The translations under genes were made by a program, and so were the position numbers. The notes beneath the pieces were generated by a model, which ran no database searches, was not told where the DNA came from, and saw only the letters and a program-made list of their open reading frames with translations. DNA of 64,000 nucleotides from Terfezia claveryi (lineage: Eukaryota; Ascomycota; Pezizomycetes; Pezizales; Pezizaceae). The DNA is taken from the NCBI GenBank assembly GCA_015179025.1, contig WHUX01000022.1, positions 1-64,000 on the forward strand. Reading direction: 5' to 3'. Positions within the stretch are counted from its first letter, which is position 1; each line of letters starts with the position of its first letter. Below are positions 8,812-57,362 of the stretch, piece after piece.

Positions 8812-8935
8812 GTCAATTCATTACTCGTATTCAATAAAGTCTGGTTGGCACCTTAAGTTATGACGAGGAACAGCATCGCCAGCATGACCAGAAGGTTATC
8901 CAACCTCAGGGCCGATCCCCCGCCAATCCCCTGTT
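8812..8935 (-). repeat. Short retroposon family D, copy 2
   Basis: Family D core with TATGACGAGGAACAGCATCG and the following TTATCCAACC block. Its poly(A) side is seen on plus as TTTTTGGGGGG. The motif AGTCTGGTTGGCAC (8838-8851) lies inside it without an obvious duplication. Confidence 0.6.
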
Positions 8936-9469
8936 GAAATGACCATCTCTTTACGCATACAATCAAGTCTCTCCTCTATGTATTGCTGATACCTATTGCG
9001 AGCACTTGTTAGCCTGCTAACGGATCTCTGCGTTATTTCTCCTTCACGTGTGGTATTCACTGTCTTCGCTTACTAGTCTATGTATCAATATCCGCATGTG
9101 CTTTCGCATGTACTTACGCATCTGGCATAACGGCTTGCACGTACTCATGATATTACTGCTCTTAGTATAGCTAGCTTAGACTGCTTTGTTGAACGTTTTA
9201 CCCTGATCTCGTCTCTATATATACGAGCTCTCAGGACACTCATGTATTGATATGCTTCTCTCGATAGACTCAATAAGACCGTCTACTCTTGAACGAACAT
9301 TCTATACGCTGCTCACACACTCACACGCTCTTCTCGCTCCTGCACTCGCATCACCCTGCTTCACTGCACTAAGAGTCCACCGCTGCATCCTCCATTCAAT
9401 ACCAGCGATACCACTCGCTCAGTAACCTTTCAATATCCCCGTGGTTACTACGTGGTTACCACTGACCTA

Positions 9470-9838
9470 CCCAGTAAGTAGTTTTCCCCCACCCTGTGGG
9501 TACCAACGAGCCAACCTGCTGGTCCTGCTCCCATACTCACTCACCTTTACAGTACTCCTGTCCCTCAAATAGCCCCTTCCTACGGTCAAGCAGCAAATCT
9601 AGCAAAACCGTGGGCTTGTCAACTACTGTACATAGGGGGTACTGCTTCCCAGTCGACACCTCAACAGTCCCATACCCAGGCAACTTGCACAATCAATATA
9701 TCTTCGGATAAACACTCTGCCAGCTCCAGACAGCGTAGGCTCGAGCCTTTACACGAGTCGATCCGAAGAGAAGCAGGAAAACCTGCTCATTATCCCGTGA
9801 TCTTGCTCCTAAAGTTTGGGGCAAGACTTCCGGGCTAG
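9470..9838 (+). pseudogene. Open frame after an LTR-like leader, possible gag remnant
   Basis: A frame without an ATG is open for about 120 codons to TAG 9836 (VPTSQPAGPAPILTHLYS at its start). It is Pro/Ser/Gln-rich and unrecognised. Upstream at about 9217 there is TATATATA followed by a CT-rich leader, the arrangement of an LTR promoter and leader. Together with the chromodomain relic at 11.3 kb this may be one eroded chromovirus; that link is inference. Confidence 0.25.
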
Positions 9839-9911
9839 TTGAGCTTTACTGCGGCGAGGTGTGGCGTAGTTACACAGCCCCACAACCTCAAACCTCATTG
9901 TGCCTGCTTCA

Positions 9912-9957
9912 TGGGACCACATATGAGTACTGGGTATTTTCTTTTGAAAAAAAAAAT
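9912..9957 (+). mobile_element. LINE-A 3' tip
   Basis: ATGGGACCACATATGAGTAC, then a T-rich stretch and poly(A), matches the tip seen at 39.26 kb in the same orientation. Confidence 0.45.
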
Positions 9958-10612
9958 GAGCTCATGATCACAACTTTCATGTGAGCCTTCATGTGGACGT
10001 GGTGAACTCGGGTATCTATATTCCTTACCTCCCTAGATTTTCACTTCATCAGCTTACAGTTCATACGGGCCGCTCGATACAGAAAGATCAGACACAGTTC
10101 TATACTTCAACGAACTCATTTCTCAAACAATCTGATTCCAGTACTTGAAGTACCAGATACTTCCTACGCCTTGTCCCAACTAAGTGCAACGTCCTATTGA
10201 TTCTTTTCGTCTCTAAGTAACCAATTCTCATCAGTCCTTTCACTGGACTATCTCTCGTTACCCTGTGGCAACTTGCGTCCACAATCAGTCTCAGGCGGCA
10301 CTGTCATTCTAAGTGGACAAATTGGCCTCAAAAACAAACAGTCTGTTATGGACCTATTCTGAGTCTATTCCAGTACCAATCTGCCACCTCCACCTCCATC
10401 AACTTCCTACAACAAAACCACCGGAATCACCGTGGATAGCATATGGCAACACCTGGGAATGAACAAAAGAAAATGTTTAGCTCCTCGGGCTAATGCTAGC
10501 GGAAACAACATGCAAGAGCCATCCTGCTCTGTTGCCGGAAGCATCAACGTCCGGAAAAGCTCCACTCCGGTTTGTTGATGGCCATTAATATATCGACGGG
10601 TGGGGGTGGAGT

Positions 10613-10987
10613 TCACACCGGCACCTGTGGGATCTGCAGAGGGGACGAGTGGATCTTTCCAGGGTATGAGGGACGGACTGGAACTTGTGGGAGCTGCCTA
10701 GGGATCTTTCTATAATTGAAAGGAAATTGAGTAGATCCTTGCAGAGTATGAGGGACTTTGGATTGACTAGACTGGAACTTGTGGGATCTGCAGAGTGAAC
10801 TTTCTACGATAGAAAGGAAGTCGAGTGGATCCTTGCAGGGAATGAGGGACTTGGGATTGACTGGACTACGGGGTGCAGGATTGTATTGAGGGGCTGCATG
10901 GACGAGACGCATAGGAACAATCTTTTGTTTCAGTGTAATCCAGCGGGTAGACTCTTTATTGTCCCAGCTACATGCTTTCACCGTCAT
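10613..10987 (-). CDS. 124-aa ORF of ~29-residue repeats, unknown
   Basis: A minus-strand frame from ATG 10987 to about 10613. The second half is three imperfect 29-30 residue units containing QSKVPHTLQGS and LPQVPV, encoded by tandem 87-90 bp DNA repeats (10620-10862). Pro/Gln/Ser-rich, probably disordered. It lies between the gag-like frame and the chromodomain relic, so it could belong to that element or merely be an open repeat. No domain recognised. Confidence 0.3.
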   Translation of the reverse strand: MTVKACSWDNKESTRWITLKQKIVPMRLVHAAPQYNPAPRSPVNPKSLIPCKDPLDFLSIVESSLCRSHKFQSSQSKVPHTLQGSTQFPFNYRKIPRQLPQVPVRPSYPGKIHSSPLQIPQVPV

Positions 10988-11339
10988 TCTTTTTTGTTAT
11001 TGTGGCACGTTCCTGCAGCTCGGCGGTTTGTCCTGCTCCAATAACCATTTGCAGATTTCGTTGAAGATGTTTGATCTTTTCCTATATATATACTTGTGTC
11101 TCTACTTTCTCTTGTTTGTCAGTCTCTGGGTGGCATAGCCATTGGTTTGTCCTTGTTGTAGCTGATGTAGAGCAACTAGGTACAGCAGCATCACCGACAA
11201 TATCATCATTTCAAACCGTCGCGATTCGCGCTGCCAAACCCTCCCCCACCCCTTCTTCCTCTTCCTCCTCGGCTACAAACTAGTAAAAATGAAGTGATGC
11301 ATCAGGGGGAAAGACAACCCACCCTTCCACGAAACTTGA

Positions 11340-11678
11340 TTTTAAGAAATTAGGGAAAGTCCGAATTATCTAGAAAATCTCCTCCCATACCTACAAACTC
11401 GACTTTCCGGCATCCATGAAAATCCACCCAGTCTTTCATGTCTCGCTCCTTGAACCCACATCTATAGACCCCCTTCCGGGTCAAACCAGCCATCTCTACC
11501 ACCTGTGATCATTAAGGACGAACCCGAATAGGAAGTTGACGAAATTGTTGATTCCCGTTTCCATGGTCAGACCCTTAAATACCTTGCCCGCTGGGTAGGC
11601 TATGATGAGCTTACTTGGGAACCTGCCGACATGTTCTTGAATGCACCTAGCATTGTGAAGGACAATAGGGGAATATAA
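11340..11678 (+). pseudogene. Ty3/Gypsy chromovirus integrase C-terminus with chromodomain
   Basis: The first part reads [20 protein letters not shown] and [13 protein letters not shown], the conserved region before the chromodomain in fungal chromoviruses. After a frame change near 11490 it continues through PVIIKDEPE into the chromodomain (FHGQTLKYLARWVGYDELTW, EPADMFLN), with the aromatic residues of the chromodomain fold in place, and ends at TAA 11676. At least one frameshift and stop make it dead. Earlier pol domains are not recognisable upstream. Confidence 0.8.
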
Positions 11679-11874
11679 CCATAGTTTCTCTAAAAAAGTC
11701 GATCAGACATCCTCCCTCGTCAGATATATGGAATCAGCACAGGGGGTAGGTATAGTATTGAGAATGCAAACCCGAGCCTAGGAAGTAACAAAGGAAAGCT
11801 AGCAAATAGTAAATATCTGACCTCCACTATCCCCATGTTCCATCCCTCCTCACCTATCTATTTATGTAAGGTCC

Positions 11875-12080
11875 AAACTTGGTGAAGAGAGTCGCCACAA
11901 AATCGATCGTGACTTCCTTATACCCGTTCCCTCATCCACTTCTTCCTCTCATCCGTGTCTTCCCCACCTATCCCAGCGGCTTCCCAGCTTCTCCCCGTGT
12001 ATACAGGGCAGGGCGACATGACGGGTCAGATCAACCTCCCAGTGCCTTCTGGTTCCATCGTTAGCACTCTTTCATCCCCA
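11875..12080 (-). mobile_element. Possible antisense LINE-B C-terminal remnant
   Basis: The plus-strand translation (SIVTS .. YPFPHPLLP .. GQ-rich) parallels the antisense of the better LINE-B fragment at 44041-44253. Homology is visible only by eye and is weak. Confidence 0.3.
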
Positions 12081-12996
12081 TTCCCTTCCCTTCCCTCTCC
12101 CTCTTCCTCATCCTTCTTCAAACCTCCCTCCGTCACCTGGGATCTTATTTGACCCCCTCTCTGGCTAGCTCGTCCCCAATTCTCGTTGCCTTTAATCCCC
12201 ACATGAGCTCTAGCCCAGCGAACTCAACTGCGTTTTGGACCAAGAGTCGTTTTTCCTCTCCTCTTCACCAATCTCAGGTCCTTTGTTCTCGTTTTTTCCC
12301 TTCCTCCGGGCTTTGACTATACAAAATCAAGATCTTCTCTTCTGGGGCTCTCCCTCATTCCCACGATTTCTTCATCCGACACTGTGACTAATTTCCCTAA
12401 ACCCACTTTTCCTTCCAGTTCCTTTTCTATCTTTTAAACCTTTACTGTTGGCTTAATTTGCGGTCTCCGACTTTCCGCTCGTTGGAGAAGAGATGTGTAG
12501 AGTCGATAAGAACATTGTTGTAGTAAAATATATGCGTGTTTTCTGAGGCCGGCGGAGGTATCTGCAATGTGCGTAGTTGTAGAATTAAACCAAGTGGTCC
12601 AGATCAACAAACTATGCGAACTCGTTGTAGTCGCTAAAATTGTGTAGGCTGTATGGGGTGAGTCACGCGGAGATTGTGGGGTATTTGAGAACCCGAATTC
12701 GCGGCCAACTCGGAACTTGACTCTCTCCAATTCTGTCTGTAATGTCATGTGCTTGGCTGAAGTTCATGTTGACTTCAAAGGGTCACCGTAAGGAGACAAA
12801 GGAGAAATCTGAATCTAATGGAAGAGCTGTTAGTCTACACTTGGAAAAGTTAATCTTACATTAGAAAATATGCCTTTCCTGCTCGTGTAGCATCTTGAGA
12901 AATAGCTAGATGGACAGTACAGTATAGGCATGCCTCAATTGCGTGCATTTTGGGGGAGTCACAAGATACGTGACTTGGCCATTTGCATTAGTTAGT
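12081..12996. other. No supported gene
   Basis: CT-rich to about 12430, then a minus-strand 104-codon frame at 12748-12434 with a poor start context (C at -3) and no recognisable features. I cannot support a gene here. Confidence 0.4.
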
Positions 12997-13150
12997 ATTC
13001 TTTTTTTTTTTTTTTGTTTCAATACTCGTAGCCATGACCAGAGAATGCAGCCTCGAAGTGGGGAAGACGTCAGCTGGAATTATCCAACCCCTGGGCCGTT
13101 CTGGAATGGCATACATGTGCACCCTGGGCAACGTATGAACGCAAATTGAG
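12997..13150 (-). repeat. Short retroposon family D, copy 3
   Basis: Poly(T) then CAATACTCGTAGCCATGACC and a TTATCCAACCCCTGGGCCGT block. Same order as the copy at 13929. Confidence 0.6.
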
Positions 13151-13928
13151 TGAAAACCGAGTCTGTTTTATATATATATTTTTTTATACATAACAGATGC
13201 TCAAACCTCCGCTTGCTCAATGATACCTCTCATTGATAGTACTATAGGGTCTTGTTATTTTCCGCACACTGTGAAGTATCAATGGACATGTGGGAAAACA
13301 TCAAATACATATGCTCCAAAACCACTCGTTTCCCATTATTATTTTTGCCAGCGATAAAACTTGATGCATAGTTGCGTAGCTCATATTCATTTAATAACTT
13401 TCCATCGCAACCTCATTAATGGCTTGCAAGTCACCTGTTTGGGCCTTTAAACTTTGGATCTCGGAGGTATGCTTTAATTTTGTATTACCTAGATAGTCTT
13501 GTTAATCACCATGTACCTGAATTGGATATTTGGGGGTTACTTTCACACGTCAACCGACATTTGCTACTTATTGTATGCAAATACTCTTCAAACTTGGTAC
13601 GCGCAGTACCAGAGAATGCTTCGATTGCGCTTCGATGGAGCGGAACCTAGCGGGTGAATCTGATCTAAATCAATACCCCATTATCTTCTGCGTTATGTCA
13701 CTGTGTATTAGTGGGGTTGAACAGTGTGTTGCTGTGGTGCTGTGTTGTGTTGAAGAAAATTTATACAGACTAGGATCTTTAATTCCGTAGTGGCCTATAC
13801 CGGGATTCTGGATTCCGCAACGGACCAGAACATCAGCACCTCCACTTCCTTAACTACCGCTGACATGTTAGAGCATGAATAGTGCAGGATAGCCTGAAGA
13901 CTCGTCGGCCGCCATTGCTGTCTTTTTC

Positions 13929-14085
13929 TTTTCTTTTTTTTTTTTTTTTTTTTGGGGGGGGGGCAAATTCAGTACTCGTATTCAAACTATCTAGTTTATG
14001 ACGAGGGAGCGCATCCCAGAGTGGGGGTACTCGGCTGGATTATCCAACCCATGGGCTGTTCTATGCTCGTACCTGATCTAGGTAG
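13929..14085 (-). repeat. Short retroposon family D, copy 4 (fullest)
   Basis: On plus: poly(T), a G run, AAATTCAGTACTCGTATTCA, then TATGACGAGGGAGCGCATCC and TTATCCAACCCATGGGCTGT. Read on minus it ends GAATTTGCCCCCCC followed by poly(A). About 150 bp, non-coding, dispersed and A-tailed: SINE-like. Confidence 0.65.
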
Positions 14086-15187
14086 AAGACAAGATACTCC
14101 CGGTGCAGATGGCGCGATGACGAATCAGAAAGAGGAAAATACAAGGAAAAAGATAAAACCACCTCCACAGTGTGAGTTAGAAATGCCACATCTTACCACA
14201 CCACTCTTGATACCCTCCTATCGCCACTGGGCTTTTCCCCTTGATGTACGTCCTCGACCCATGGGCACTCCATCAGATGCACTTCGTTTGGGTCTTGCCA
14301 GATATGCAAAAGGGGTCCTCTGCTCTACCCAACTTGTGCATCCACGCCCTCTGGGGCCCTCGGCCTATCCTCTGGTAAGTTCGCCCTGTTGTCCCATCTG
14401 AGGTATATCGGCTTCGTGTAAATGCTTAAGCTTGTCATAACCCAGCCAGTGTGACAATATCAGGCTTGAGCATGCTTCCCTATCCATGCTTCTCGTCTGT
14501 TCTGGCCCATTCACCAATCATGTCAATTTGTCAATGGGTGGCTCTTAGAAAATTTTTAAGGGAGACTGGATTCGAACCTACGAACGCAATTGCTTTCACC
14601 AGGATGGTTCCCAACTATACTTTCCACTCCCCCTCTGGCAGGCTAGTTCGGCCACCTCTGTTCGCTCTCGTGAACTTTGAGTTTTCGAATAAGATCATAA
14701 GACTGTAGTTTCATAAATTCTGTCTGATTATGACTGTCCCTTTACTATCAGTTCACGTGATGTCATCATGTCTCCCATGCCCTACAACACTGAGGGCAAT
14801 GTCTGCTGTTCTTTGCGGTTTATCCTATGATTCCCACCCTCTTTTTAGGACCACAACTGTACTATTGCCCTCTGTCACCTTACCTTGACTGGGGTCCCCA
14901 GTCCACTTAAGTGTGTCGTCTATCCACAGATCGTTTTCACCTTAACGCATCGATATCCTGGTGTTGCCTGGGCTTTCTCAATGTACATTGACGTCGAGGT
15001 ATAGCTTTCCTGACTTTGGAGTGGTCTCAGCTGAGGCCCATGCATCGCCCCTCTGCCTGTAGAGCTGCTTCCAGAGGGTACACTGCCCCGATAGAATCAG
15101 TTGATGTCTTCAATACATGAAAGAGTATTTGATGAAGCTCCTGGGTTCTTTTATTGTCTTAAGTCGGGTCGTATTTCTCCCTCCTGT
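14086..15187. other. No supported gene; tRNA-like shadow on minus
   Basis: Mixed unique sequence. A minus-strand segment around 14560-14660 has GGTTCGAATCC and GGTGGCCGAAC blocks reminiscent of tRNA-Ser/Leu, but the T stem does not pair, so no tRNA is called. Confidence 0.4.
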
Positions 15188-15300
15188 ATAGGCAAACCTC
15201 TATATTAGCATCCCTCTATAATTGCATAACCTGTATTAGCATAGACTGAGTTACGGACTATGGCTAGAAATAGCATAACTCTTTAATTAGCATGCATAGC
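15188..15300. repeat. Pogo/Tigger-like terminal repeat
   Basis: Three related ~15-bp units (CCTCTATATTAGCAT, CCCTCTATAATTGCAT, AACCTGTATTAGCAT) in a row resemble the repeated transposase sites at ends of pogo-type elements. No matching opposite end was found, so it is a candidate only. Confidence 0.3.
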
Positions 15301-16045
15301 ATTCGCCGGTCCCAACCTGGTGACTGCTAAAAAGCCAACCTGCATCCCTAGTGGCATGGGGGCGGAGAAAATTTGTGATACATACACGGACTGTGAATCT
15401 ATAGCTCTAAGTACCTCCAACAACAATGGGATCGGGAATGCTAAGTCTTGCATATCTGTTCTCCAGCTTCGAAACCCAACGGCATATACCAATTACATCC
15501 TATTTCCAATGTTCATCAACAACAGCAGAGAGAGTGGAGGAAGAGGTGGCAGTGGAAGTAGTGGCGCCTGTGGGAGTAGGCAGTGCAGTAGAGGCAGGGA
15601 GCAAGTAGGGGTAGGGGGTGGTAGTGGAGGTAGGCAGGACAATAGGCGGCGGAGGCAGTATTTGTTTGCTAGCTTATTGAAATTTACACCTCATTGCCTG
15701 TATCCACGTGATGCCAAGAAAATCCTGTAAAACTCCTCTACATAATTGTACATACAGTACCTCCAATCCTACCTTTCATATCTCATAAGTCTGAATGTAA
15801 ACAAGATTGGAAGCCCATAGCGTACCTCGCATCATCCTTTGTCATACCATAAACTCTGAAATGAAAAGTGCGCGTTTTGAAAAACAATCGTCTATCCATT
15901 CCATCAAAACCCTGGTGTCTGCGTATCTGCTTCCATTGCCATCTCCGTAGACTCTTGAATGAACTATGGATATACCTTCCAAACGGGGTCATCCTGGGAC
16001 CGCCTCTAATAGTTCATCGGCACCCCGCTACCTACATGTTTTTGA
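15301..16045. other. No supported gene; purine-rich GGAGG stretch
   Basis: Contains a GGAGGTGGCAG-rich stretch (15530-15660) open in several frames because of composition. No start context or domain supports a gene. Confidence 0.35.
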
Positions 16046-16165
16046 TGGGTCAACTACGGAACTCGTGTTTAAGCTATTCTAGCCTATGACGAGGGAATGC
16101 ATCGCCGGGACGAGCCCAGTCGATTTTATGTCACCGGGAAGTGCATCAATTTTTTTTTTTTGAGT
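16046..16165 (-). repeat. Short retroposon family D, copy 5
   Basis: AACTCGTGTTTAAGCTATTC then CCTATGACGAGGGAATGCATCG; a poly(T) run follows at about 16150. Confidence 0.5.
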
Positions 16166-17230
16166 GTCTCGATTGGTTCGTGAGTAAGCACCACAGTAGG
16201 GGGATTAAATTAGATGCTCGACTTGCAAAGGCTGTTGTAAGCGGTATAGCCCTGGAATGAGAGGTGGGCCGGTGGGGTGAGGAAATAAACTTTCTCGGAG
16301 GAGGTTTTTGGGGGGGATTCATAGATAGGAGGGTAATATGAAGTCTCTGATGGGCTGAATTTATTTCTTCCACCTGTTGTTTGAATTTTAAGCAAAGTCG
16401 ACATACAATATGTTTATCTAGGGGGAGTAGTTGCGCGTTATAGGTACAGGGGAGATGGGAAGACCGTACTAAAGCGTTTGATATCCAGACGCGTGTGGTA
16501 TATTCCAACCTATCAAGTGCTAGGTCATTGCATTTCTTGTTAATCGGACTAGAAGCGCACACGACCTCAATTTACAACGAATATGCTCTGCAATAGGTTC
16601 AAAAGAATATCTCTATGGTTATATTCTTTTAAGTTATTGGGTGCTTGATATCACTTTCATTGGGTAGAGCTATCTTAACATTTACCCCGTCTCCCGCGGT
16701 TACCCTTAGAATGTCCCAACTCAATTTTAGTTACACATCATAGGTGAGGTACTCAGAAGACTCTACTCACAACATTTATTCTCTAGAATTATGAAATAAT
16801 TGATTTGGAGTTCCTATGATAGAGATTCCAACATATACCTATCTACTCCCCCGTCATTACATACCCTCGGGATCACAACTTCTGTATAAACATCTTCCAC
16901 GCCCAGATCTCCAATAACAAGTTAGAGCAATGATTCCCGCCCATAAACACTTTTGTATGACCCTCCTATCCACCGATCTTCCCCTCGGAATCTCCTAATC
17001 TGACCAAGTAGATTTTATGTCACACAAGCTCACCCCCCTTCCAAGGCCTATACCCGCTTTACAACACCATTTCGCAAGTCTGATATCCATTTTGGGCCCC
17101 ATACTGTTGTGATTGCTTGGTTTCAATATGTGGCCTATGTTGTGTGATATGTGTACTGTTTTATATTCGGCGGCTAGTCATCTCGTAGTAGACTTTACTC
17201 TGGTAAATTATTTCAAGCAGGGTATCGTTC
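16166..17230. other. No supported gene
   Basis: A minus frame at 16562-16146 has no ATG at its start and ends in a poly(A)-encoded KKKN. The remainder shows no sustained frame. Confidence 0.4.
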
Positions 17231-17234
17231 CAGG

Positions 17235-17745
17235 TGTAGTTAGACACCTAGCGTAAGATTCTGGTTTTTTTCTGCATTGTAAGTGAAATGTTACGAGAAC
17301 CACATATTAGATTTTACTTACTTCGGTAATGATAACCTTTGATTGAATCTCTTCTGTGCAATGCATTGGAAGTTATTTTGTGGCGCTGGTGTATGAAATA
17401 GGCTCTGTACTGAGTTGTATGGAGGTGTAGTTGTAATAGACGCCTGTGATTTGTAGGCTTAAGATGCTCGCTGTCGATATGTTTGACACACTAGCTAGTG
17501 AAAACTAGCAGCGAGGAATGCATGTTAGAGCAACAGGACAGAAACTGTCCTCCCTTGAGGTCTTTTACAGGCACCCTCGGAAAAGGGAATTCAGCTCGAG
17601 CTCCTCCTGCCTATCCTCCCAAAAGTTGTCTAGGAAGGCTTCAGCTCTTGCCATCGTATCTGAGGATGGTACGGTGGCGGGTCCGCTACTCCTACTGCCC
17701 CCTGCTCCCTCGGCACGATCCCCCTTCTTCTCTCCCTTGACATCC
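17235..17745 (-). repeat. Tandem-duplicated 3' gene region, copy 1
   Basis: Shares with 19038-19850 and 20182-20940 a block beginning CGTAAGATTCTG, then GCATTGTAAGTGAAATG .. TGGCGCTGGTGTATGAAATA, then the coding end of the repeat-protein gene (stop at 17565-17567). Copies are in the same orientation. Confidence 0.85.
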
Positions 17746-17950: not shown

Positions 17951-17961
17951 CCCTTTCTCTT

Positions 17962-23173: not shown

Positions 23174-24510
23174 TGTAGATGCGAGACTTAAAAGGTAGAG
23201 GGGAAGAAGGAGCAGGCAGTTAGGTCAGGAATCAGATGGAGCAGGCAGTGAGGTCAGAGATTGTGTAGGTTGGGAGTTGGGAGTTTTTGATGTTTTTCTT
23301 AAGTCCTGTACCCCGCGTATTCGACTTAAGAGGGCGTTACTACGCTTAGTCAGACCCAACCCCGCTTTGTCTATCTACAATACATGCGCCTATGTGGCGA
23401 GGTCAACTTGTTCTCGTGCCCAGACCCTCGTAGGAGGCCGAAGCCTGTGGCCATGGCCTTATCCTATGGCTTCGCCGCTTAGCTTCCCTATACTGTAGTC
23501 GCCCATGACGGCCGATAGCCAAGGCCTCCATTACCCTGATTTTCATGGTGCCAACCAGACTAATTTTCATGTATATATTTGCATGTATATAGCCAGCACG
23601 TCTTCCTCGATTGTTGTATAGAATCAGGCAATAGCAGCGGATTGGATTCCCCGATAACAGTGTATCCCATGTATCCATTGTTATGCTACGCACTTCTACT
23701 CCGTAGTCTAGGTACCCCGCCGCCCTCCACTAATCTGTGAGTGAGATAGCCATCACTGTAGCTGCACGCCTTCAGTTATATGGCCACCCAACTCCTTGCC
23801 AACCCTACCTACCACTGCCTACCATCTCGGCCTATCTTGCCACCATTTGACTTAATCCATAGACTAATACATCCATCCTGACCCCGTCAACTCCACAAAG
23901 CGTACATTATCTGCCAATTGTCCTGTCTTGAAAGGATTTCCCGGGGCCTTAAATCTTCCCATTTTAATCCACTGTTCTGGCACTGCCGCTGCCAAATTCC
24001 GGCTGGCTGGTCTACGAGGCCACAAACCAATCCTTCATCATCAAATACATTGCCTCTTCCATTCATGAAGCCTCCAAAATTCCAACCAGGCCCAAAATTG
24101 TCTCCATGGAAAATCAGAGATATTACAAACTTCACTAGCCATCTTAGCTCCCTGCCGTCGCAGACCTACCGCCATGGTGTTATCGTCGAAGTCTGGTTCG
24201 ATCAATGCCTATAGAACGAGCCAGGATGTGGTAGTTCGAGAAATAGAGGAAGTACAAATGGTTACATTACTTCATATCCCGGGAAGGACCCCAGGCCACT
24301 AGGGTAAGGGGTAATGAGCCATGGAGAAAGCATCCCCAGAGGAAGAGTGATTTGGGCTATTTCTGAATGAAATTAAGGAGATTTTGGTCCATAAATAGCT
24401 GGAGAGGAGGAGATGCGTATCTATTCCACCTTAATCAGATCTAAGTGGAGTGGTGTACGTCTATGAAGGAACGCCAGTGGTAAAAGAAATCCAGAAATAC
24501 TCCCCGGGCA
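23174..24510. other. No supported gene apart from one micro-insertion
   Basis: 23205-23262 holds two ~28-bp direct repeats (GAGCAGGCAGTTAGGTCAGG type) upstream of the 869-aa gene. Opposed frames at 23887-24214 are short and lack support. Confidence 0.4.
23539..23571 (+). mobile_element. 15-bp micro-insertion with perfect 9-bp duplication
   Basis: GTGCCAACCAGACTA (23548-23562) is flanked on both sides by ATTTTCATG (23539-23547 and 23563-23571). It is the clearest short copy of the family described in the findings. Confidence 0.8.
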
Positions 24511-34500: not shown

Positions 34501-34980
34501 AAAGGTTCAATGAACGATCGGTTATGTTATGCAGAACCAGCTTTGCGACGGGTAGCGCCGGATTTACAAAACAATGCATATTAGAGAATTTTGTATGGGT
34601 CCAGGAGTATAACATTTAATGCAACTTATGCAGCGTATGATTCTGTTAGGAATATACATATATACAGTCAAGAAAGAGGCGAAGCAAGGGGTAATCCTTT
34701 GATGTTATGCAGGTGTGACAAATGACGGGTAGTTTCTCTAGACCGAGGGAAAATGACAGCAAATGACAGTGTCCACTGTCCCAATAACTGCAACAAGCAG
34801 AAAACAGTGGAGTAAGAGCAAGTAAAGGAAAGCCGGTGCTCAATAATAAAACTTCAATCCGTATTCTCTAATGGTGCCAACGACTCGCGCCTGCAACGGA
34901 GTCGCTTTCGGAGGTACTCGCTCCTTGGAATAATTGCGCTCATGGCAACTCCTAGTCTCGTTGCATGGGCAACTCCCTAG
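31599..34980. other. Gene-poor stretch, no supported gene
   Basis: Several short plus frames between 32740 and 33280 look weakly protein-like but have no consistent start or splice model. A degraded family D core is at about 33690-33745. The rest is AT-rich and unassigned. Confidence 0.4.
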
Positions 34981-39250: not shown

Positions 39251-39254
39251 TGCA

Positions 39255-42226: not shown

Positions 42227-42277
42227 AAGTGGGATTGGTCTGGTTGGCACAAGACCCTCCACAGGAGGAAGTGGGAT
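42227..42277 (-). mobile_element. 33-bp hairpin micro-insertion with 9-bp duplication
   Basis: Insert 42236-42268 ends (minus strand) in GTGCCAACCAGACCA and begins with the hairpin CCTCC-TGT-GGAGG. Perfect AAGTGGGAT repeats flank it at 42227-42235 and 42269-42277. Confidence 0.8.
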
Positions 42278-43739: not shown

Positions 43740-43754
43740 GTGCCAACCAGACTA
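43740..43754 (+). repeat. Micro-insertion tail without visible duplication
   Basis: Exact GTGCCAACCAGACTA; the right flank is replaced at once by the poly(T) of a LINE. Confidence 0.6.
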
Positions 43755-43755
43755 C

Positions 43756-44361
43756 TTTTTTTTTTTTTTTCTTTTTTGGAGTCTATACGTGTATGGAGCC
43801 TACATAAGGCTATGTTACGGTCCGGTTCCCTCATCTTAAAAGACTCGGTACACCCACGGGACAACGGGCTGCATAAACGCACAGCCTCCCGAGCCAAAGA
43901 AAAGCAGAAACACCCCTACCGCCTCCGCCACGCCCACTAACCGGCCTCACCCCCATATTAGAAGACTTCCACCGCCACGCCCGTCCCGGCCCTCCCCTTA
44001 AACCCCTTCACCCCAGCCTGCTGCTCACCCCAGGTCTAATTTGGCAAAGAAGGACTCGGCCAGATCTATCGTGACCTCCTTCCCTCCATCTTTTTCCTTC
44101 TTTAACCACCTCTTTCTCTCGTCCACCTCCTCCCAGGTGCTCTACCTCCTGCCTAGGTATCTCTTCCCCGTGAGAGCAGGCCAAGGCAACATGCTTGCCT
44201 GCCTCCTCGCGCCTTCCGCACCTCCGGCAGGTAGGGTCAACAGAACCATCTAAACGAGCTCGCCAGGACTGGAGGTTCCCCTTCCCCGTCCTGCAGTGCA
44301 CGTAATTGATTCTTGCCCTTCTATCCCAACCAACCACTCTGCCTTTCCCCGTCCCAGCCAC
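43756..44361 (-). mobile_element. 5'-truncated LINE (family B)
   Basis: Poly(T) (minus poly(A)) then the tail signature GGAGTCTATACGTGTATGGA .. GACTCGGTACACC. Coding part on minus: INYVHCRTGKGNLQSW and CRRCGRREEAGKHVALAC, a zinc-knuckle-like Cys/His tail typical of fungal LINE polyproteins. Reverse transcriptase absent. Confidence 0.75.
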
Positions 44362-44435: not shown

Positions 44436-44468
44436 CCCTCTATCGAGGGGCTTGTGCCAACCAGATTA
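44436..44468 (+). repeat. 33-bp hairpin micro-insertion, no clear duplication
   Basis: Hairpin CCCTC-TATC-GAGGG followed by GTGCCAACCAGATTA. Confidence 0.6.
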
Positions 44469-48581: not shown

Positions 48582-48599
48582 GCAGATGTGAGTGAAGAA

Positions 48600-49740: not shown

Positions 49741-49932
49741 TGTGGGCTCGTAGAGGGAGCGGGATATGAGACTGCTGGAGGTGATCTTGTTGCAATTACC
49801 GAAGCTGAGACATGGGAGATCTGAAGGGAGGTTATCGAAGGGGAGGCCGTGATGGAATGCGGTGATGATGGGGTCCTTGCAATGTGAGTGTATACTGGAC
49901 TGTGGGCCACTGGGTTGGAAATTGGACTGGGT

Positions 49933-49967
49933 CTAGAGGCGGAAGTGCCAACCAGACTAGAGGCGGA
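49933..49967 (+). mobile_element. Micro-insertion with 11-bp direct repeats
   Basis: AGTGCCAACCAGA between CTAGAGGCGGA (49933-49943) and CTAGAGGCGGA (49957-49967). The tail reads GTGCCAACCAGACTA if the shared CTA is counted. Confidence 0.75.
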
Positions 49968-50035
49968 GATGGGATTTCTCGTCATAGGTTAGAACGGTTT
50001 GAATACGAATACTAATTTATTAAAACAAAAGCAAA
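49968..50035 (+). repeat. Short retroposon family D, plus copy
   Basis: GGGATTTCTCGTCATAGGTT .. TTTGAATACGAATACT followed by an A-rich tail. Confidence 0.55.
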
Positions 50036-50189
50036 AAAGTAGAAACACTTTTTACATCTGCCCTATAACCTCGTTTCCTCAGACAATAGGCAATAGGCAA
50101 AGCGATCTTTCTATATACGCCATAACTATACGCCATAACAAAAGTACGTCAATGCAACCCCTCGCAGCAATTATCCCTCTTGCTTTTTT

Positions 50190-51225
50190 TTTTTTTTATC
50201 AAATCCTATGCGGCCCCGTGTTAGGGGGCCATGAGGAGCCACCCGGAAGCCCGGGTGGATTCAAGGTAAAGACAAGTTAATCTGTCAGAACCGCGCAAGA
50301 TAAATACAAACATCAAGACGAGGCCCCATACTGTCATTAACGGATTATCCGATGACCCGGAAGCCTGACTGAGCCCCGACCTCCTAACCTGTTGAAATTA
50401 AGACTGAACTTGGAGAATAAAGTAAGGGACTGGAAATGAACTAGAAAGATACCGACGTGACTTATGAACTGGTACAAAGGGAACTCGTGAAAATTAGGCC
50501 TGTGGAGAATTGAAACTAGGTAAGCTCTTTGAATAAGAACCTGAAGTAGGCCTCCGTGGCCTTATAGGTCTCTTCCCCTTCCTTTCTCCACTCTGGCTTG
50601 TCAAGTTCCTCCCAACTACTCTTGTCCCCCAGTAGGGCCCTTCTGGGACGATCGAAAAGTGGACATGCAAACGTGATATGTTCCCCTGTCTCCGAGGGAT
50701 TACCGCATGCGCATTCCGCTGATGCTGCCTTACCGATGTGATGCAGCCAGCTCTTCTGGAGACCTCTGTTTGTTCGTAGCCACGTATAGGCTGATATGGC
50801 ATGCCGATCCCATTCCACTCTCCTGGTGCCGTGTCCCGCTCTCGTTCTTGCTTCCCTGCGTGGGGCCTTGGAGGACGCTCGGAGGCCTCCTTCCGTTGCT
50901 GTGCGAGTCTTGCCTGTAAATTCGCCTAGGTGGGATTGGAAATTGCAGGTCCGGTCCGCCTTCTCGTTCCCCTCGATGCCTAGGTGGCCTCTGATCCAAG
51001 AGAGCCTGAGATCCCTTTGTGCGTTGCCGACTAGTAGTGCCTTAATGTCCTTCTCAATGCCGGACCTGGGGGGATGGCCTGTGCTCATATTGCGAACGGT
51101 TTGGACTGCTGCCTGCAAATCCGACAGGATAGCCAGCATGTCCGAGTCCTCTCTTTGTAGCGCTAAGTTCATGGCGTAGAACCCTCTTGCTTCATCCTTC
51201 CTGCGATAAAGGGTATTCCAACCCA
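50190..51225 (-). mobile_element. 5'-truncated LINE (family A), best preserved
   Basis: Poly(T) at 50185-50198, the LINE-A tip and 3' untranslated region, then an uninterrupted minus-strand frame (50516 to 51235). Confidence 0.85.
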
Positions 51226-51235
51226 GCCATTGCAA
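50516..51235 (-). CDS. LINE polyprotein C-terminus: RNase H and Cys/His tail
   Basis: 239 codons without a stop. Residues about 18-110 are the later part of RNase H: MNLALQREDSDMLAILSDLQ (catalytic Asp in SDLQ) and LSWIRGHLGIEGNEKADR (His and Asp). The DGS start of RNase H is missing, replaced at the N-terminal side by sequence of repeat R (QWLGWNTLYRRKDEARG). Then WDRHAISAYTWLRTNRGLQK and CACGNPSETGEHITFACP, the Cys/His tail. The end is RFLFKELT. It cannot transpose alone, but its open frame shows it decayed less than the Gypsy copies at the left of the window. Confidence 0.75.
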   Translation of the reverse strand: MQWLGWNTLYRRKDEARGFYAMNLALQREDSDMLAILSDLQAAVQTVRNMSTGHPPRSGIEKDIKALLVGNAQRDLRLSWIRGHLGIEGNEKADRTCNFQSHLGEFTGKTRTATEGGLRASSKAPRREARTRAGHGTRRVEWDRHAISAYTWLRTNRGLQKSWLHHIGKAASAECACGNPSETGEHITFACPLFDRPRRALLGDKSSWEELDKPEWRKEGEETYKATEAYFRFLFKELT

Positions 51236-51900
51236 ATCTCAAGACCCCATGTTCTAAGCACTTGTAGTTAGTTAGTTTAGAAATCTATAATTTTATGGCC
51301 ATAGAGCCAATGCACTTACCAAGGCTTCCTCAATAGGCCCATCTCGAGGCTGCTAAACCAGTCCGACCCTCTTGTTTCCCTGTTCCAGGAATGACTGGTA
51401 TATAGTCTGGGTGCTTATTGAGAGTCGATATATATTGGTAATGATTCCACATTGGTTTAGTAGTGAGGGTGTGATTTCTTCGGCTCTTTGGAGGGTTTGC
51501 GTTATTGCGAAATGGCTTTTGTGCATGTACTTAAGGTGAGGAATTCGGTATTTGTGCTGCTCGAGAACAGGTGAGGCTTGTTGAGAAATTGAGATTTGGG
51601 GTAAGGCCCCGGGATGCACACAAAGATGATGTTGAAGATGTTGGAGACATTGTAGTGACGTGGAAGGTGTCACAGAAGGAAGGATTTTGAAGTGTTAGGC
51701 AGTGGTTTAGGTGAGATTGGATTTCCGGTCGATGGATGCTCTAGGTACTGGGAACTGCAGCTGGTTTATATACATTCGATCCTAGATGGCAAAGATTGAT
51801 GCGGAAGATTTATCGGCATTGAAGTTATATGATCAATAGCCCACATTTTTGTGGCGGTAATTGTTTGACAAGCCTGCGGATTGTTACCAGCTACCTCTGA
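51230..51900 (-). repeat. Repeat R copy 2 with 106-aa ORF and empty hAT target
   Basis: Inverted relative to copy 1. A minus frame 51673-51353 reads ITPSLLNQCGIITNIYRLS and ends FLEQGNKRVGLV. GTAAGT .. CTAAC .. TAG (51315 to 51256) is intron-like. CATCCCGG occurs once (51609-51616), the uninterrupted form of the hAT target at 44988. Confidence 0.8.
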
Positions 51901-51944
51901 TAGAGGTTTGTTCTGGCCTGTTCAGCAATCTATTCAACTGGCGT

Positions 51945-51974
51945 CAATGGGGCTAGTCTGGTTGCCAATGGGGC
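51945..51974 (-). mobile_element. 12-bp micro-insertion with perfect 9-bp duplication
   Basis: TAGTCTGGTTGC (51954-51965) between CAATGGGGC (51945-51953) and CAATGGGGC (51966-51974). Confidence 0.75.
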
Positions 51975-52513
51975 GCTATTGACGGCTAATTCATTAGCCC
52001 ATTCACCAACCTAACCAACAGAAGAACAGTAATATACCTGCGCTAGTCTCATGCCATGCGTCACGTCTACCTCCATCGCTCTCTTCATCCCATTCAGCTC
52101 CGGCGCCGATTCCAATTTGGATGATACGTTTTTTACTATGGAAGGCTACGTTTTATTACTTCACGTTCTTTTCATGCCCCTCTAGGCACGGCCGAGATTT
52201 TCACAAAGGTGGTCAGCGCAGGATCACTGACTTTCTGGGCTTCCTCTCCTTGATATTCCAGTCTCCACAACTACTCAAATTTGGCTATTTTTAGTTTGTA
52301 TGGTCTACTTGTATTCGTAAGCCTATTCCGCAACATTTCCTGCTTCATTCGATAGTTAATTATTTTCTCTCGCTATAAAAATATATTGGTTACAAGCATA
52401 GTTCTCCCCGTCCGAACGATATGCTTGTATCGAGAGTCCTCTGTATACCTACCTATCCACATCCCGAGACACATCCGTTGACACTAACACGGGACTACCG
52501 GTATTCTTACAAG
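51975..52513. other. No supported gene
   Basis: Nothing assignable. Confidence 0.35.
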
Positions 52514-52585
52514 ACAACTCTCTCTTTTTTTGTTTTTTAAAAAACTCATTAGTCCTATCGGGAAACCATGAGGAACAACTCTCTC
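52514..52585 (-). mobile_element. 50-bp LINE-A insertion with 11-bp duplication
   Basis: Insert 52525-52574 (T-rich, then ACTCATTAGTCCTATCGGGA) flanked by perfect ACAACTCTCTC at 52514-52524 and 52575-52585. Confidence 0.85.
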
Positions 52586-53149
52586 GTACATACCTCTGGA
52601 CAGGCTTTGCAGCCAAGGGGTATTAACCCTTCAAGGACTGGCCACCCTACTCACCAAGCCTCAATCCCATCGAACATGCCTAGTCCAAGCCCAAAATTTA
52701 CCTCACTCGCTACTATCCACATCTCGCACATATCACGAACGCCCTCTAGAGGTCATTAAGCCTATCTTGATTGATATGCACATTTATTGTTGGGAGCTGG
52801 TCAATCCGGCGCATCTTCCAAGTTTGGCTGCCAGATGCTACGTCGGATTTGGACAGTTATCCATGCAAATGGGTTTTATACCAAGTATTAAATGTTTCTC
52901 CTTTTATCCAGCTTTTATTTCCTGCTCTCTATCTATTTTTACCATTTATTTAATGTGAAGTGGAAGTTTTCACTGTACCTGGGTATTGATTGCCCTTTCG
53001 CCGGGAGGGGCGCCGAATAGCTGGAAGACAGCTTGCCGGAAGGGGGGCACTCAATGACTTTCACTCATGACATAATCGCAATTCCTTACCACATGGTATT
53101 TGAGTCGTTTCGAATCTTGAATTTATTTTTCAGCACGGTATCTCCGTCG
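52586..53149. other. No supported gene
   Basis: Short frames only. Confidence 0.35.
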
Positions 53150-53505
53150 CTACACTTTCCACATGGTCTCGGGTTGGAACTACAGTCAGGCCTCGAGGGA
53201 CCTATCTGGCACCAGCCGGTTAATGGCACGGGAGTCCCGATTCACTTGCGTTTATTTTTCGTTATTGTTCCTTGAGTCACCTACATTTGCTTGCCATTTG
53301 GGACTTGAGTTTGTCTGTTTGAGGTTGGTTTTACCCATTCCTGCTTTTGCCGTCAGCAGTTGTGTCTAGGTCCGTTCATGTTTTGTGTTTGTATATATCC
53401 GCCGGGCCTGGCAGATCAACGTGCCTTGCCCTGAATCCTCCGGGTTTCTGGGTTCATCATGGTGGACCGAAGATGAGTAATGAGAACTTAAAAAAAAAAA
53501 ATGGG
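53150..53505 (+). mobile_element. LINE-A 3' UTR and tip, plus strand
   Basis: CAGGCCTCGAGGGACCTATC and CAGCCGGTTAATGG match the LINE-A untranslated region inverted. The tip (TCATCATGGTGGACCG .. ATGAGTAATGAGAA) ends in 11 A at about 53490-53500. Confidence 0.65.
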
Positions 53506-53559
53506 TGTTGCCCTTGTATTCTGAATACCTTTGACAATTGATTATACATATATAAAAAC

Positions 53560-54200
53560 TCTCTGTATCAATATTTAGAATACTACCTTTCAGCCCTAAT
53601 AACTGCAGCAACATGGCAAAGCATTGATTATCATTGAATCTAACAGAGATGAAGGTATTGCTTTCCACACCTCTTTCAAACACTCAGTCATTCTCTTCTT
53701 AACAGCCACTGGTTCACCTAGATAAAGAATCAAGATCTAGAAACTTTTGATGAAGTGTCTTTTCAAGATATTGGCTGACGTGGTCAATAGGGTTAAAATC
53801 TAGAACAAACTAGATGATCTGCCACCTCCTACCCTTCACCTTTCAACCAATCTCTAGTAAATCTTGAGTGTGAAGTGAAGAGTTGTCTTGCATGAATTCT
53901 AGATCAGCTTCCATGTCATCCTTCAAGGTTCCCAATATACTGTTCAGAGTTATTTCAACCCACAAGCAAAGGATAAAGGTATCCTGATGTAGACCCCGCA
54001 GAAGCATCCCCATATCATCAAAGTAACTTGTTGCCCAGTTCTATTAATTTTGTATTTCCGTATCAACTTGAATTTCCTGAATTTAGAACAGCAATTAAGG
54101 GAATATACATATCTGTTTCCATTTACAGCTCCAATTTTTATGGTCATTTGCTTTACCCCTGCAGTTAGCATGTCTTACACGGCCGTTGCATCTCATGGAA
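53560..54200 (-). pseudogene. Dead Tc1/mariner transposase
   Basis: Minus strand, several frames. In order: QVTLMIWGCFCG (the Tc1 WGCF region), MQDNSSLHTQ (second catalytic Asp), VLDFNPIDHVSQYLEKTLHQ (third Asp/SPDLNPIE region), then KKRMTECLKEVWKAIP. Order and spacing are those of a DD34D/E transposase core; stops and shifts are many. Terminal repeats were not identified. Confidence 0.65.
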
Positions 54201-54454
54201 CATTTTCCTACACGGACTATATATTTTTTTTTTCCTTATAGCTGAGTTAAATTCACATCAAAATACCTTCGTAATCTTTGCAAAGTTGCAATATACCTAG
54301 TTTCTGAAGTCACGGACGCTTATCAGGAGAAGAATCGCGCCCCACTACATGTCATGGTAAACTAATACATCCCTTACTATTTCTTGAACCGATATACAGT
54401 AACGTGCCATCCTTGTTCGCACCCCAACTGATTTACACCAAAACTGCCATTTTC

Positions 54455-54520
54455 GATCATCATGGTCTCCCTAACGGGACCGTATGAGTAATGAGTTTTC
54501 GGGAAAAAAGGATACAAAAA
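54455..54520 (+). mobile_element. LINE-A 3' tip
   Basis: CATGGTCTCCCTAACGGGAC, TATGAGTAATGAG, short A run. CCATTTTCGA before and CCATTTCGAA after may be a degraded target duplication. Confidence 0.5.
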
Positions 54521-54626
54521 ATACCCATTTCGAATATTGTCAAAGAGCAACCGTACAAAGTTATTCCGTATTTGTCCCTTTCATTGGCTTATGAGATATA
54601 ATGTGAAGTCAACTATCACTAAATTG

Positions 54627-54722
54627 GCTCTGCTGGCGCAATGGTAGCGCGCAAGACTTCTACTTCCCCTTAGGTTTAGAAGGTCAATCTTGAGGTTGCG
54701 GGTTCGAGTCCCGCGTGGAGCT
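54627..54722 (+). tRNA. tRNA-Arg(UCU): tRNA-Arg(UCU) with 24-nt intron
   Basis: Acceptor GCTCTGC (54627-54633) pairs with GTGGAGC (54715-54721). D arm GGCGCAATGGTAGCGC. Anticodon stem CAAGA/TCTTG (54652-54656, 54688-54692). Anticodon TCT at 54659-54661, with the intron at the canonical position after base 37 (54663-54686). T arm GCGGGTTCGAGTCCCGC. All arms pair. Confidence 0.93.
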
Positions 54723-55149
54723 ATTTCTTTTTGCACTCCATTTTTCTCAGATTCCTCCACTTCTCCTCAAATCTCAGCCACTCTTAGAAATAAAGCCCCA
54801 TTGCTATTATTCTCGCAACGAAAATCTTCCCCCTGCCCTAAAGACTGAGGAAATTAGAATTATGGTTCGTTGAAGTAACTTCATGCACCTACAGTACCTG
54901 GTGATGATTTCGAAATGGAACTGGGTCGACAAACAAAAGTGACAAAAGTCAATCTCTACGCAGCGCTCAATAATGGGAATACAAAACACATTTAAATATC
55001 GCACGCCACGCAAGGATCAGACTCTTTGCTTCCCATCACCGGTAGGTAGGGTGGGGCTTGCATAACACTTCAAAACTTCCCATTCGCTCAAGGTTGTGTG
55101 ATCGTAGGTCAGAGCTCCTCGTAGAGGCAATGGGTCGTAGTCTCGTGCC

Positions 55150-55164
55150 TAGTCTGGTTGGCAC
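55150..55164 (-). repeat. Micro-insertion tail without visible duplication
   Basis: TAGTCTGGTTGGCAC on plus. Together with the inverted copy at 55410-55424 it bounds a 275-bp segment, but flanking sequence is not duplicated. Confidence 0.55.
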
Positions 55165-55386
55165 GCGCTTGAAATTGGAAATTGCTTAAAAGGGAAATAT
55201 TGTCGGGCTTGGCATTCGGTCATGTTGCATATATAAAGTTCTCGTTCTTTGTCTTCATCTACACACATAGATAAATATATAGATATACGCACTTTTCAGA
55301 TTTCCTCACGAGAAGAGTGAGTTGAGTTCTATTCTGAGTGTGTGTTCTTCAGCACTCTCGTGCCATGAGGCCAATCTAACAGATTA

Positions 55387-55433
55387 GCGTATGGCTCTAC
55401 CGAGGGGTTGTGCCAACCAGACTAGGCGTATGG
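55387..55433 (+). mobile_element. 31-bp hairpin micro-insertion with 8-bp duplication
   Basis: Insert 55395-55425: CTC-TACC-GAG hairpin, then GTGCCAACCAGACTA and G. GCGTATGG flanks it at 55387-55394 and 55426-55433. Confidence 0.8.
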
Positions 55434-55499
55434 GTCACAACAATACTCTATTTTGTACTGGGCGTGAGCAGGGTATACCCTAGTACAATTCTTTGCCTA

Positions 55500-55770
55500 G
55501 CCAACACACACTCTCCATAAACAATGGTCGCTTGAACCAGAATTTGGAGTTCCAAGTGCCAACCAGACTATTAGAGTTCCAATCAATTCAGAATCAAACA
55601 CCGGACTCACACACACTCTCCAAAAACACTAATCAACCAGAACTGAGAGTTCAAATCCATTCACCAACAAACAACCAGAATTTGGGAGTTCAAATAATTC
55701 AGCAACAAAACATCGGACTCACACACAATGCTCCATAAATACTGGTCAACCAGAATTTGGAGTCCACCCC
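55500..55770 (+). repeat. Imperfect tandem repeat
   Basis: Units combine ACTCACACACACTCTCCA, AACACTGGTCAACCAGAA and TTTGGAGTTCAAAT in three or more degenerate copies. Confidence 0.6.
55544..55582 (+). mobile_element. 15-bp micro-insertion with 12-bp duplication
   Basis: GTGCCAACCAGACTA (55556-55570) between TTGGAGTTCCAA and TTAGAGTTCCAA (one mismatch). It lies inside the tandem repeat at 55500. Confidence 0.7.
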
Positions 55771-55797
55771 GTCCAAATCCTGAGCTCGACACTTTAC

Positions 55798-56281
55798 GTG
55801 TGCTCCTCGAATCCTTCCTTCAAGCTTTACGTGTGCTCCTCGAATCCCTTCAAGCTTCTGCCACGGAGCGAAGTGCGAGAGAGGCGGAGAGGGGTTGCTG
55901 AGAGGGAAGCGAGGGAGGCGGAGAGGGTTGCTGAGAGGGAAGCGAGGGAGGCGGAGTGGGTTGCTGAGAGGGAAGCGAGGGAGGCGGAGTGGGTTGCTGA
56001 GAGGGAAGCGAGGGAGGCGGAGAGGGTTGCTGAGAGGGAAGCGAGGGAGGCGGAGAGGGTTGCTGAGAGGGAAGCGAGGGAGGCGGAGAGGATCGCGGAT
56101 AGAGAAGCGAGGGAGGCGGAGAGGATCGCGGATAGAGAAGCGAGGGAGGCGGGATAGAGCTGCCAGAGAGGAAGAGAGAGTTGCTAGGGAAGCAGAAAGA
56201 GTGGCCAGGGAGGCAGAGCGGGTAACGGACAGGGAAGCCATGGCAGCAGAGAGGGAAGAGCGGAGGGCTAACAGGAGGTGA
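55798..56281 (+). pseudogene. Charged-helix repeat protein, one frameshift
   Basis: After a short N-terminal part the frame is about eight 11-residue units (AEREAREAERV), encoded by 33-bp tandem repeats (55865-56155). Alternating Glu and Arg at this density predict a long single alpha-helix or coiled coil. One extra G near 56151 causes a stop. Reading one base on restores the same composition (ERVAREAERVTDREAMAAE, then EERRANRR) to TGA 56279. Either a recent break or an assembly error. The start ATG is uncertain because other frames are also open. Confidence 0.45.
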
Positions 56282-56628
56282 TGGCAATGCTGTTGGCCGA
56301 GCGTCGGGGCGGTCAGAGTCCAAGTAGGGGGTCAAGTGAGGGTGATGGGGGGGAAAGGGTGGGCCAGGGCAGTGAGGCGGGAAGCGGTGGGAGGGGGAGG
56401 GCGGTAAGAGGGGGAGGGGTGGTCAGAAGGGGCGGGGAGGACGGGGGGAGCGCGTCCCATGGCGGCGGTAGAGGATGTAGGAATACGGGTGCAGGAATAA
56501 TAAGTTACCATTTGGTCTCGTACAAATCAATTCTGCATCAAAACCGACTCACAGCATTGTCATCACCAGCTGATCCGCGGACCTATCGAGTGTTAGTCAG
56601 GAGGTACTGTGGGTCATACTCAGGTTAG
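56278..56628 (+). CDS. Gly/Arg-rich ORF, doubtful
   Basis: Overlaps the previous stop and runs 116 codons. The first half is Gly/Arg/Ser-rich because of G-rich DNA; the end (ADPRTYRVLVRRYCGSYSG) looks more protein-like and is followed by GGTTAGTATC, a possible splice donor. It may be part of the same gene as its neighbours. Confidence 0.25.
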   Translation: MMAMLLAERRGGQSPSRGSSEGDGGERVGQGSEAGSGGRGRAVRGGGVVRRGGEDGGSASHGGGRGCRNTGAGIISYHLVSYKSILHQNRLTALSSPADPRTYRVLVRRYCGSYSG

Positions 56629-56719
56629 TATCTTGTGGTTAAAGGCTTGTGAGCATATCTGATATGTAAATCTTAGTATTAAAATACAACGAATCTCTCC
56701 TACCTACACCACTATTATA

Positions 56720-57133
56720 ATGCCTATCAATCTCGCTCTAATGAGCGAACTGCCAAACCCAGAACGGTTTGACCTTAGGGAGTCTAGGCCTAATACTCTG
56801 GGGGTATGTTTAGAGCTCTTAGATCTTCAGGAAGACAAGATAGCGAACCTGATGTACAAGCTGGCGGTCTACGGCTTACCAGACCCAAATTCCCCACTAG
56901 TCTCAGCACAAAACCGCCAGACATTCACCTGAGCCCTACAGAAATTTTGGGATGACGGTCTCATGGAGGATACCTTCTCTGGGTCCAAACTTAACACGTT
57001 GGATCGAGAACTTGGGGCCTACCTCGTGTATTCAATCTGCCATCAATACCGAGTTGGCAACATAAAACGATTGGTGAAAGTATGGACTTCCAGGGGTACA
57101 GGTGGTCAGCGGCCGAATCAAGGAAATGAGTAA
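56720..57133 (+). pseudogene. 137-codon gene with a single in-frame TGA
   Basis: ATG 56720 begins MPINLALMSELPNPERFDL. The frame continues to TAA 57131 with one stop, TGA 56930-56932, in QTFT-stop-ALQKFWDDGLM, where TGG (Trp) would fit. The rest (NTLDRELGAYLVYSICHQYR, then KVWTSRG) is evenly mixed and protein-like. No family recognised. One transition would explain the break, so the gene is either freshly inactivated or has an exon border there. It may be the C-terminal part of the gene starting at 55.8 kb. Confidence 0.45.
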
Positions 57134-57214
57134 TTACCCGCCAGGAGGCCGGAACGGTTGCCACATACAATCCCCTCCGGACGTCAAAGATGTATTTCCA
57201 AAACCAATTGGGAC

Positions 57215-57343
57215 TTTTTTTTTTTTTTTGGAGTCTGTACGTCTGTGGAACCTAAGGCTATGAGACGGCTCCGTTCCTCCCCTTTAAAGGTTCGGTACTC
57301 TCACGGAACAACGAGTTGCCTAAACACCTAGTCTGGTTGGCAC
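57215..57343 (-). mobile_element. LINE-B 3' tail
   Basis: Poly(T), GGAGTCTGTACGTCTGTGGA and TTCGGTACTCTCACGGAACA match the tail at 43.77 kb. Confidence 0.65.
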
Positions 57344-57362
57344 AACACTCTCCTTTGGAGGG
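57329..57362 (-). repeat. 34-bp hairpin micro-insertion in a LINE-B tail
   Basis: TAGTCTGGTTGGCAC then CTCTCC-TTT-GGAGGG. It interrupts the LINE-B tail; at most AACAC is duplicated. Confidence 0.55.

Follow-up and report, generated by a model that had tools for sequence, protein, structure and literature searches.

Does the 15-bp sequence that recurs on both strands of a 64,000-bp stretch of the Terfezia claveryi genome (contig WHUX01000022.1, positions 1 to 64,000; the window) mark a mobile element and, if so, of which kind? T denotes this tag, GTGCCAACCAGACTA, throughout. T-tagged units prove to be insertions that duplicate their target over a near-fixed length of 9 bp. An earlier note, made from the letters of the window, had counted the 15-mer at least 11 times; 11 matches are found at ≤2 mismatches and 14 at ≤3 (shuffles: mean 1.55, largest 6). 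The genome-wide search which that note proposed was carried out on the assembly that contains the window (72.56 Mb, 794 contigs). It gave 4,395 copies of T at ≤1 mismatch versus 0 for the reversed pattern, about 6 being expected under uniform bases, which confirms the excess at the scale of the genome.

Target duplications and empty sites

Two samples were examined in addition to the window: 20 stretches of 10 kb picked for T density (264 kb with the window, 200 of which were thus chosen for density) and, later, 20 short loci that were the next uncovered places in the order of the genome-wide T listing. Together with the window, they contain 89 distinct exact copies of T. The 9-mer located to the right of T was sought upstream with 0-1 mismatch; flanks swapped between copies served as control. 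A 9-bp duplication was found for 46 of the 89 copies versus 1.2 expected (30 exact and 16 with one mismatch; swapped flanks, 0.4 and 0.8). An alternative scoring passed 48/89 (swapped flanks: mean 1.5, largest 7 in 200 shuffles); an earlier one, applied to 98 copies at ≤2 mismatches, passed 60 versus about 4. Scoring of the flanking direct repeats against controls, also suggested by the earlier note, hence reveals a clear excess. The duplications announced there as 8-12 bp long are real, but their length is near-fixed: the mode is 9 bp and the range 8-10 among 147 validated rows of 223 (the 223 include families that had been selected, and palindromes counted both ways). When the 264 kb were scanned without guidance for 9-bp repeats enclosing inserts of 4-120 bp, AGACTA was the commonest insert end (48 times); the inserts ending in it were as short as 7-10 bp.

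Empty sites were found in one dispersed repeat. Three of its copies (L125, L126, L127) carry a single AAGATTCCC and no unit; seven aligned filled copies carry two inverted units among three copies of AAGATTCCC, some slightly changed. A more diverged copy (L128) also lacks both units, and another (L124) is damaged at this place. Insertion with duplication follows from these empty and filled copies for the AAGATTCCC site, and statistically from the swapped-flank scores for the family. The short mobile insertions with target duplications described earlier are thereby corroborated, by statistics and by the empty paralogous sites of one repeat family.

Unit ends, hairpins and the moving form

Units come in three forms: T by itself (15 bp); T preceded by a short hairpin (mostly 25-36 bp); and, less often, palindromes of 23-54 bp that carry T at both ends in inverted orientation. 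Of the 46 validated units, 19 are 14-15 bp long, 1 is 18 bp and 26 are 25-36 bp (a few of these 26 are two-ended, one being counted in both orientations). The end opposite to the tail, previously called variable, is therefore not freely so, and the graded 5′ truncation of short interspersed nuclear elements (SINEs) or truncated long interspersed nuclear elements (LINEs) is not seen: one length in 46 falls between 14-15 and 25-36 bp. The longer units frequently start with a hairpin. In the 33-bp family (CCTCC-TGT-GGAGG-GTGTT-T; 15 distinct sites), an exact 9-bp repeat abuts the first base at 9 sites; at one more of the 15, the unit starts one base further in. In the 31-bp family (TCTC-TAC-GAGA-GGCTT-T; 19 distinct sites), 7 sites have the repeat directly against the first base, 2 more have one extra G in between and several have no repeat. 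Occasional additional bases are found at junctions of units.

Hairpins of at least 3 bp were found in 46 of 55 units of 26-37 bp (family-enriched set), with exactly 20 nt after the hairpin in 34 of the 46. In a set chosen by T alone (28 distinct units, 19 testable), full pairing over 4 bp is seen with a tail of 20 nt in 7 of the 19, versus 0-2 at other tail lengths (swapped: mean 7%, largest 25%). Since only these 7 pair fully, the rule of 20 nt applies to the main families but does not extend to every unit. Heads of the CCTC...GAGG type occur at 204 places, the first 100 of which include 26 stem-loop types (hand tally): CCTC-TAC-GAG at 40 (4 with a GAGAGG arm), CCTCC-TGT-GGAGG at 12 and CCTCC-ACA-GGAGG at 6. 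The reverse loop of the commonest type, CCTC-GTA-GAGG, is found at 2 places genome-wide, one of them within a perfect palindrome. As this reverse loop is so rare, the one-way loop suggests copying of the hairpin units in their own form; for one family, the loops TGT and ACA, mutual reverse complements that both occur, speak against this. Wobble pairs, once considered a sign of RNA, were no longer counted as one after the stems had been read anew with TAC as the loop. A 20-mer from the hairpin units has no exact match in the viral contigs.

These features bear on the target-primed retroposon with tail-anchored truncation that the earlier note favoured. Under this hypothesis, the template would be an RNA of some 31-34 nt that has a hairpin at its 5′ end and a tail terminating in ACUA at its 3′ end, and reverse transcription would take place where the target is nicked. 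Truncated copies would account for the shorter units, and palindromes would arise by priming at both nicks. The constant tail with its adjoining hairpin, the prevailing loop orientation of the main type (suited to a copied single strand) and the occasional extra junction bases agree with it. The reading is nevertheless weakened by the near-fixed duplication, the discrete lengths, the T inverted at both ends of the two-ended form, five units that fold no better than shuffles and a sample devoid of longer copies with the same tail; it is considered unlikely. Graded 5′ truncation as the principal explanation suffers from the discrete lengths and from the constant left end of the 33-bp family.

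The two-ended form was characterized separately. Inverted T'...T pairs separated by 0-30 bp number 46 (exact) genome-wide. Among 40 fetched palindromes (one, L056, repeats L031; L052 and L058 are open to other readings), the exact outer duplication is 9 bp in 17 and 8 bp in 3, and 4 more have one mismatch. Some of the others consist of two adjacent units; in L058 and L051, two inverted units have one target sequence in common. Pairs of inverted units at identical or almost identical targets, which yields three copies of a 9-mer, were noted in these two loci and in the repeat family of L072. One-ended units might be halves of palindromes that lost one arm after insertion. Their heads resemble the palindrome centre, two-ended forms exist, and both TGT and ACA loops of one family occur, as loss of either arm predicts. 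Yet the reverse loop of the commonest type is almost absent, the duplication abuts the hairpin without any remnant of a lost arm, and the 46 exact pairs contrast with 4,395 ends, counted with a different mismatch limit (≤1). This origin is very improbable: the commonest type's loop orientation disfavours it, while the TGT/ACA pair supports it.

Units with the related tails GATCGAGACTA, GTGCAACCAGACTA and GTGCAAGCCAGACTA are also located between exact 9-bp repeats; in the last type (L130, L131), the left end is near a palindrome centre. L130, L131 and L021:7427 carry a second family with the tail GGCTAGTGCA(A)GCCAGACTA and 9-10-bp duplications.

A longer parent element ending in the same tail, sought as suggested earlier, was not found in the 264 kb: among 263 end pairs tested there, all matches combining T-like ends with an exact 9-bp duplication span ≤70 bp. 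No longer upstream sequence common to copies lacking a duplication was noticed by eye (no whole-genome LINE screen was made). The P-type transposase domain PF21787 gave no match in the genome, but control genomes gave none either. Two Mutator-like elements (MULEs; L113:103-2738 and L114:541-3158) have identical 20-bp terminal repeats, CGGACTGACTC(A/T)GGACAGGT, and exact 9-bp duplications. Helitrons are not known to duplicate their target and were set aside for this reason. By analogy with the P element, each unit could be the scar of an excised longer element. In favour of this, units contain the end portion of one inverted repeat, with undamaged duplications on either side; the 20 nt following the hairpin in most hairpin units of the family-enriched set fit as well, and the staggered cut of the P element offers a precedent (PMC7776569). 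No unexcised longer element was seen in the 264 kb, only 7 of the 19 testable units chosen by T alone pair fully at 20 nt, and the P-type domain was not detected (its control being silent too); scars are quite improbable. The alternative that the earlier note had derived from 8-9-bp duplications, remnants of transposon ends, thus divides: transposon ends fit better than a retroposon, whereas "remnants" does not sit easily with the lack of a longer element in the 264 kb.

Three features together point to a transposase-like enzyme working in trans: a duplication close to a fixed 9 bp, the behaviour of T as an inverted repeat when paired, and the discrete lengths. The best explanation, which has about an even chance of being right, is a set of mobile DNA units, non-coding and some 8-54 bp long, that an enzyme inserts in trans with a near-fixed 9-bp stagger; the simplest candidate is a transposase of the DDE type. 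Insertions, duplications, an empty site, discrete unit ends and the two-ended form are direct observations; we infer which class of enzyme acts, that DNA and not RNA is what moves, and how the second end is joined. The enzyme would cut the target with a 9-bp stagger and act on units whose sole end conserved in sequence is ...CCAGACTA (full form, GTGCCAACCAGACTA). T at both ends would give a very small palindromic element; far more commonly, T is at one end only and the other end is a short hairpin or nothing past the 15-mer. The second end may be joined in two ways: by transfer of one T 3′ end with cutting and end joining on the opposite side, or through copying that starts from T and halts at the hairpin.

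Several observations weigh against this transposase explanation. A clear duplication (0-1 mismatch) is lacking for 43 of the 89 exact copies, and only 9 of 21 copies in the 20 listing-order loci have one. No parent element was found in the 264 kb, and no linked transposase with T ends at the loci examined (4 of 21 MULE matches and 4 of 9 KDZ matches). The hairpin energies of the five units are no better than those of shuffles, the exact 15-bp form is left without explanation, and two T copies of the window sit at the ends of SINE-like repeats. One-ended insertion is not known to be a normal transposase product.

A self-sustaining one-ended family of 15-34 bp, with one sequence-specific end and one hairpin end, copied from unit to unit and inserted with a 9-bp duplication, is possible but rather doubtful. 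If it exists, its members would rank with the smallest mobile sequences known and would transpose in a way that dispenses with a second terminal repeat. In the textbook view, cut-and-paste transposition requires two matching ends. High-copy one-ended insertions of 15-36 bp with clean 9-bp duplications would mean either routine natural single-end insertion by a transposase or a retroposon pared down to hairpin and tail. In our judgement, usual repeat finders probably miss units this short, so that small insertions of this origin may have been overlooked elsewhere.

Copies and neighbouring features in the window

All six flanking direct repeats and all four hairpin-headed copies (42236, 44436, 55395, 57329) listed in the earlier note are present (Table 1). 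Only the repeat GAGGCGGA needs trimming, as the leading CTA given for it belongs also to the tail. No duplication was found beside 5 of the 11 window copies (8837, 43740, 44436, 55150, 57329).

Table 1. T-tagged and related units of the window. Positions include the duplications where these were found.
Unit	Position	Strand	Flanks and remarks
T-only unit 23548-23562 (15 bp)	23539..23571	+	9-bp duplication ATTTTCATG on both sides
33-bp hairpin+T unit 42236-42268, head CCTCC-TGT-GGAGG	42227..42277	-	Duplication AAGTGGGAT; family also at other sites
16-bp unit 49944-49959	49936..49967	+	Duplication GAGGCGGA
12-bp unit 51954-51965 (GCAACCAGACTA)	51945..51974	-	Duplication CAATGGGGC
Hairpin+T unit 55395-55425	55387..55433	+	Duplication GCGTATGG
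T-only unit 55556-55570	55544..55582	+	Duplication TT(G/A)GAGTTCCAA, 12 bp, 1 mismatch
Related 15-bp unit 34953-34967 (CATGCAACGAGACTA), ends in AGACTA, other inner sequence	34944..34976	-	Duplication GGCAACTCC (+ strand)
Hairpin+T unit, head CCCTC-TATC-GAGGG	44436..44468	+	No duplication found
Hairpin+T unit	57329..57362	-	No duplication; adjoins SINE-like repeat 57215-57328
T copy, 1 mismatch	8837..8851	-	No duplication found
T copy	43740..43754	+	No duplication found; beside T-run of SINE-like repeat
T copy	55150..55164	-	No duplication found

A SINE-like repeat, roughly 114 bp long and bordered on one side by an A-run, is located at 57215-57328 and at about 43755-43880; it has many partial matches in the genome. 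The unit 57329-57362 begins exactly where the first of these ends, and the T copy 43740-43754 is one base away from the T-run of the second. Two tRNA genes match the Rfam tRNA model (54627-54722, 96 bp; 60067-60150, 84 bp). Of the candidates scored for the window's open reading frame of 869 aa, none was a homologue at E ≤ 0.001. No second copy of the whole segment 54300-57600 was found; it is repeated only in parts.

Comparison with known systems

SINEs and 5′-truncated LINEs have a constant 3′ end, target duplications and a one-sided structure, and the units described here are alike in this. They differ in their discrete lengths (15-36 bp), near-fixed duplication and absence of an A-tail; no LINE partner was found among the copies inspected by eye. 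Miniature inverted-repeat transposable elements (MITEs) and MULEs share with these units a non-coding nature, high copy number and a duplication of about 9 bp. The target-site duplication of MITEs is found here, in 46/89 exact copies and by empty paralogous sites; their two inverted terminal repeats are found in the two-ended minority, whereas most validated units, of 15-36 bp, have one terminal repeat. The one-ended form lacks both the two repeats of a MITE and the graded truncation of a LINE, and no described family is known to fit; the literature available to our search held no description of such a family and no match to the 15-mer string. Of the 4 MULE loci examined among 21 matches, two end in CGGACTGACTC with a 9-bp duplication and none has T ends.

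Duplications of 9-11 bp are reported for Mutator-like elements (PMC3310237), in keeping with the mode of 9 bp and range of 8-10 found here; the "solo TIR" (terminal inverted repeat) of the same paper is an extra repeat within a two-ended element. REP (repetitive extragenic palindromic) sequences and REPINs of bacteria also combine a short conserved head with a hairpin and occur as singlets and inverted doublets at high copy number (PMC3116915). The present units differ in lying between target duplications and in the predominance of singlets: the usual doublet is the exception here (46 exact doublets, 0-30 bp apart, versus 4,395 ends at ≤1 mismatch), and REP singlets are regarded as defunct remnants of doublets (PMC3116915). 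The P element is cleaved 17 bp inside its 31-bp repeats at the 5′ end, and such a long internal staggered cut could leave stubs of terminal repeats between duplications; it differs by its 8-bp duplication, its 31-bp repeats and the length of its elements (PMC7776569). In single-ended transposition of piggyBac, one end is mobilized without the other; these are rare products of assays, whereas thousands of far smaller one-tag copies are found here (PMC3952818). The internal cut of the P element and the single-ended events of piggyBac serve as analogies for the way in which units with one T might be formed.

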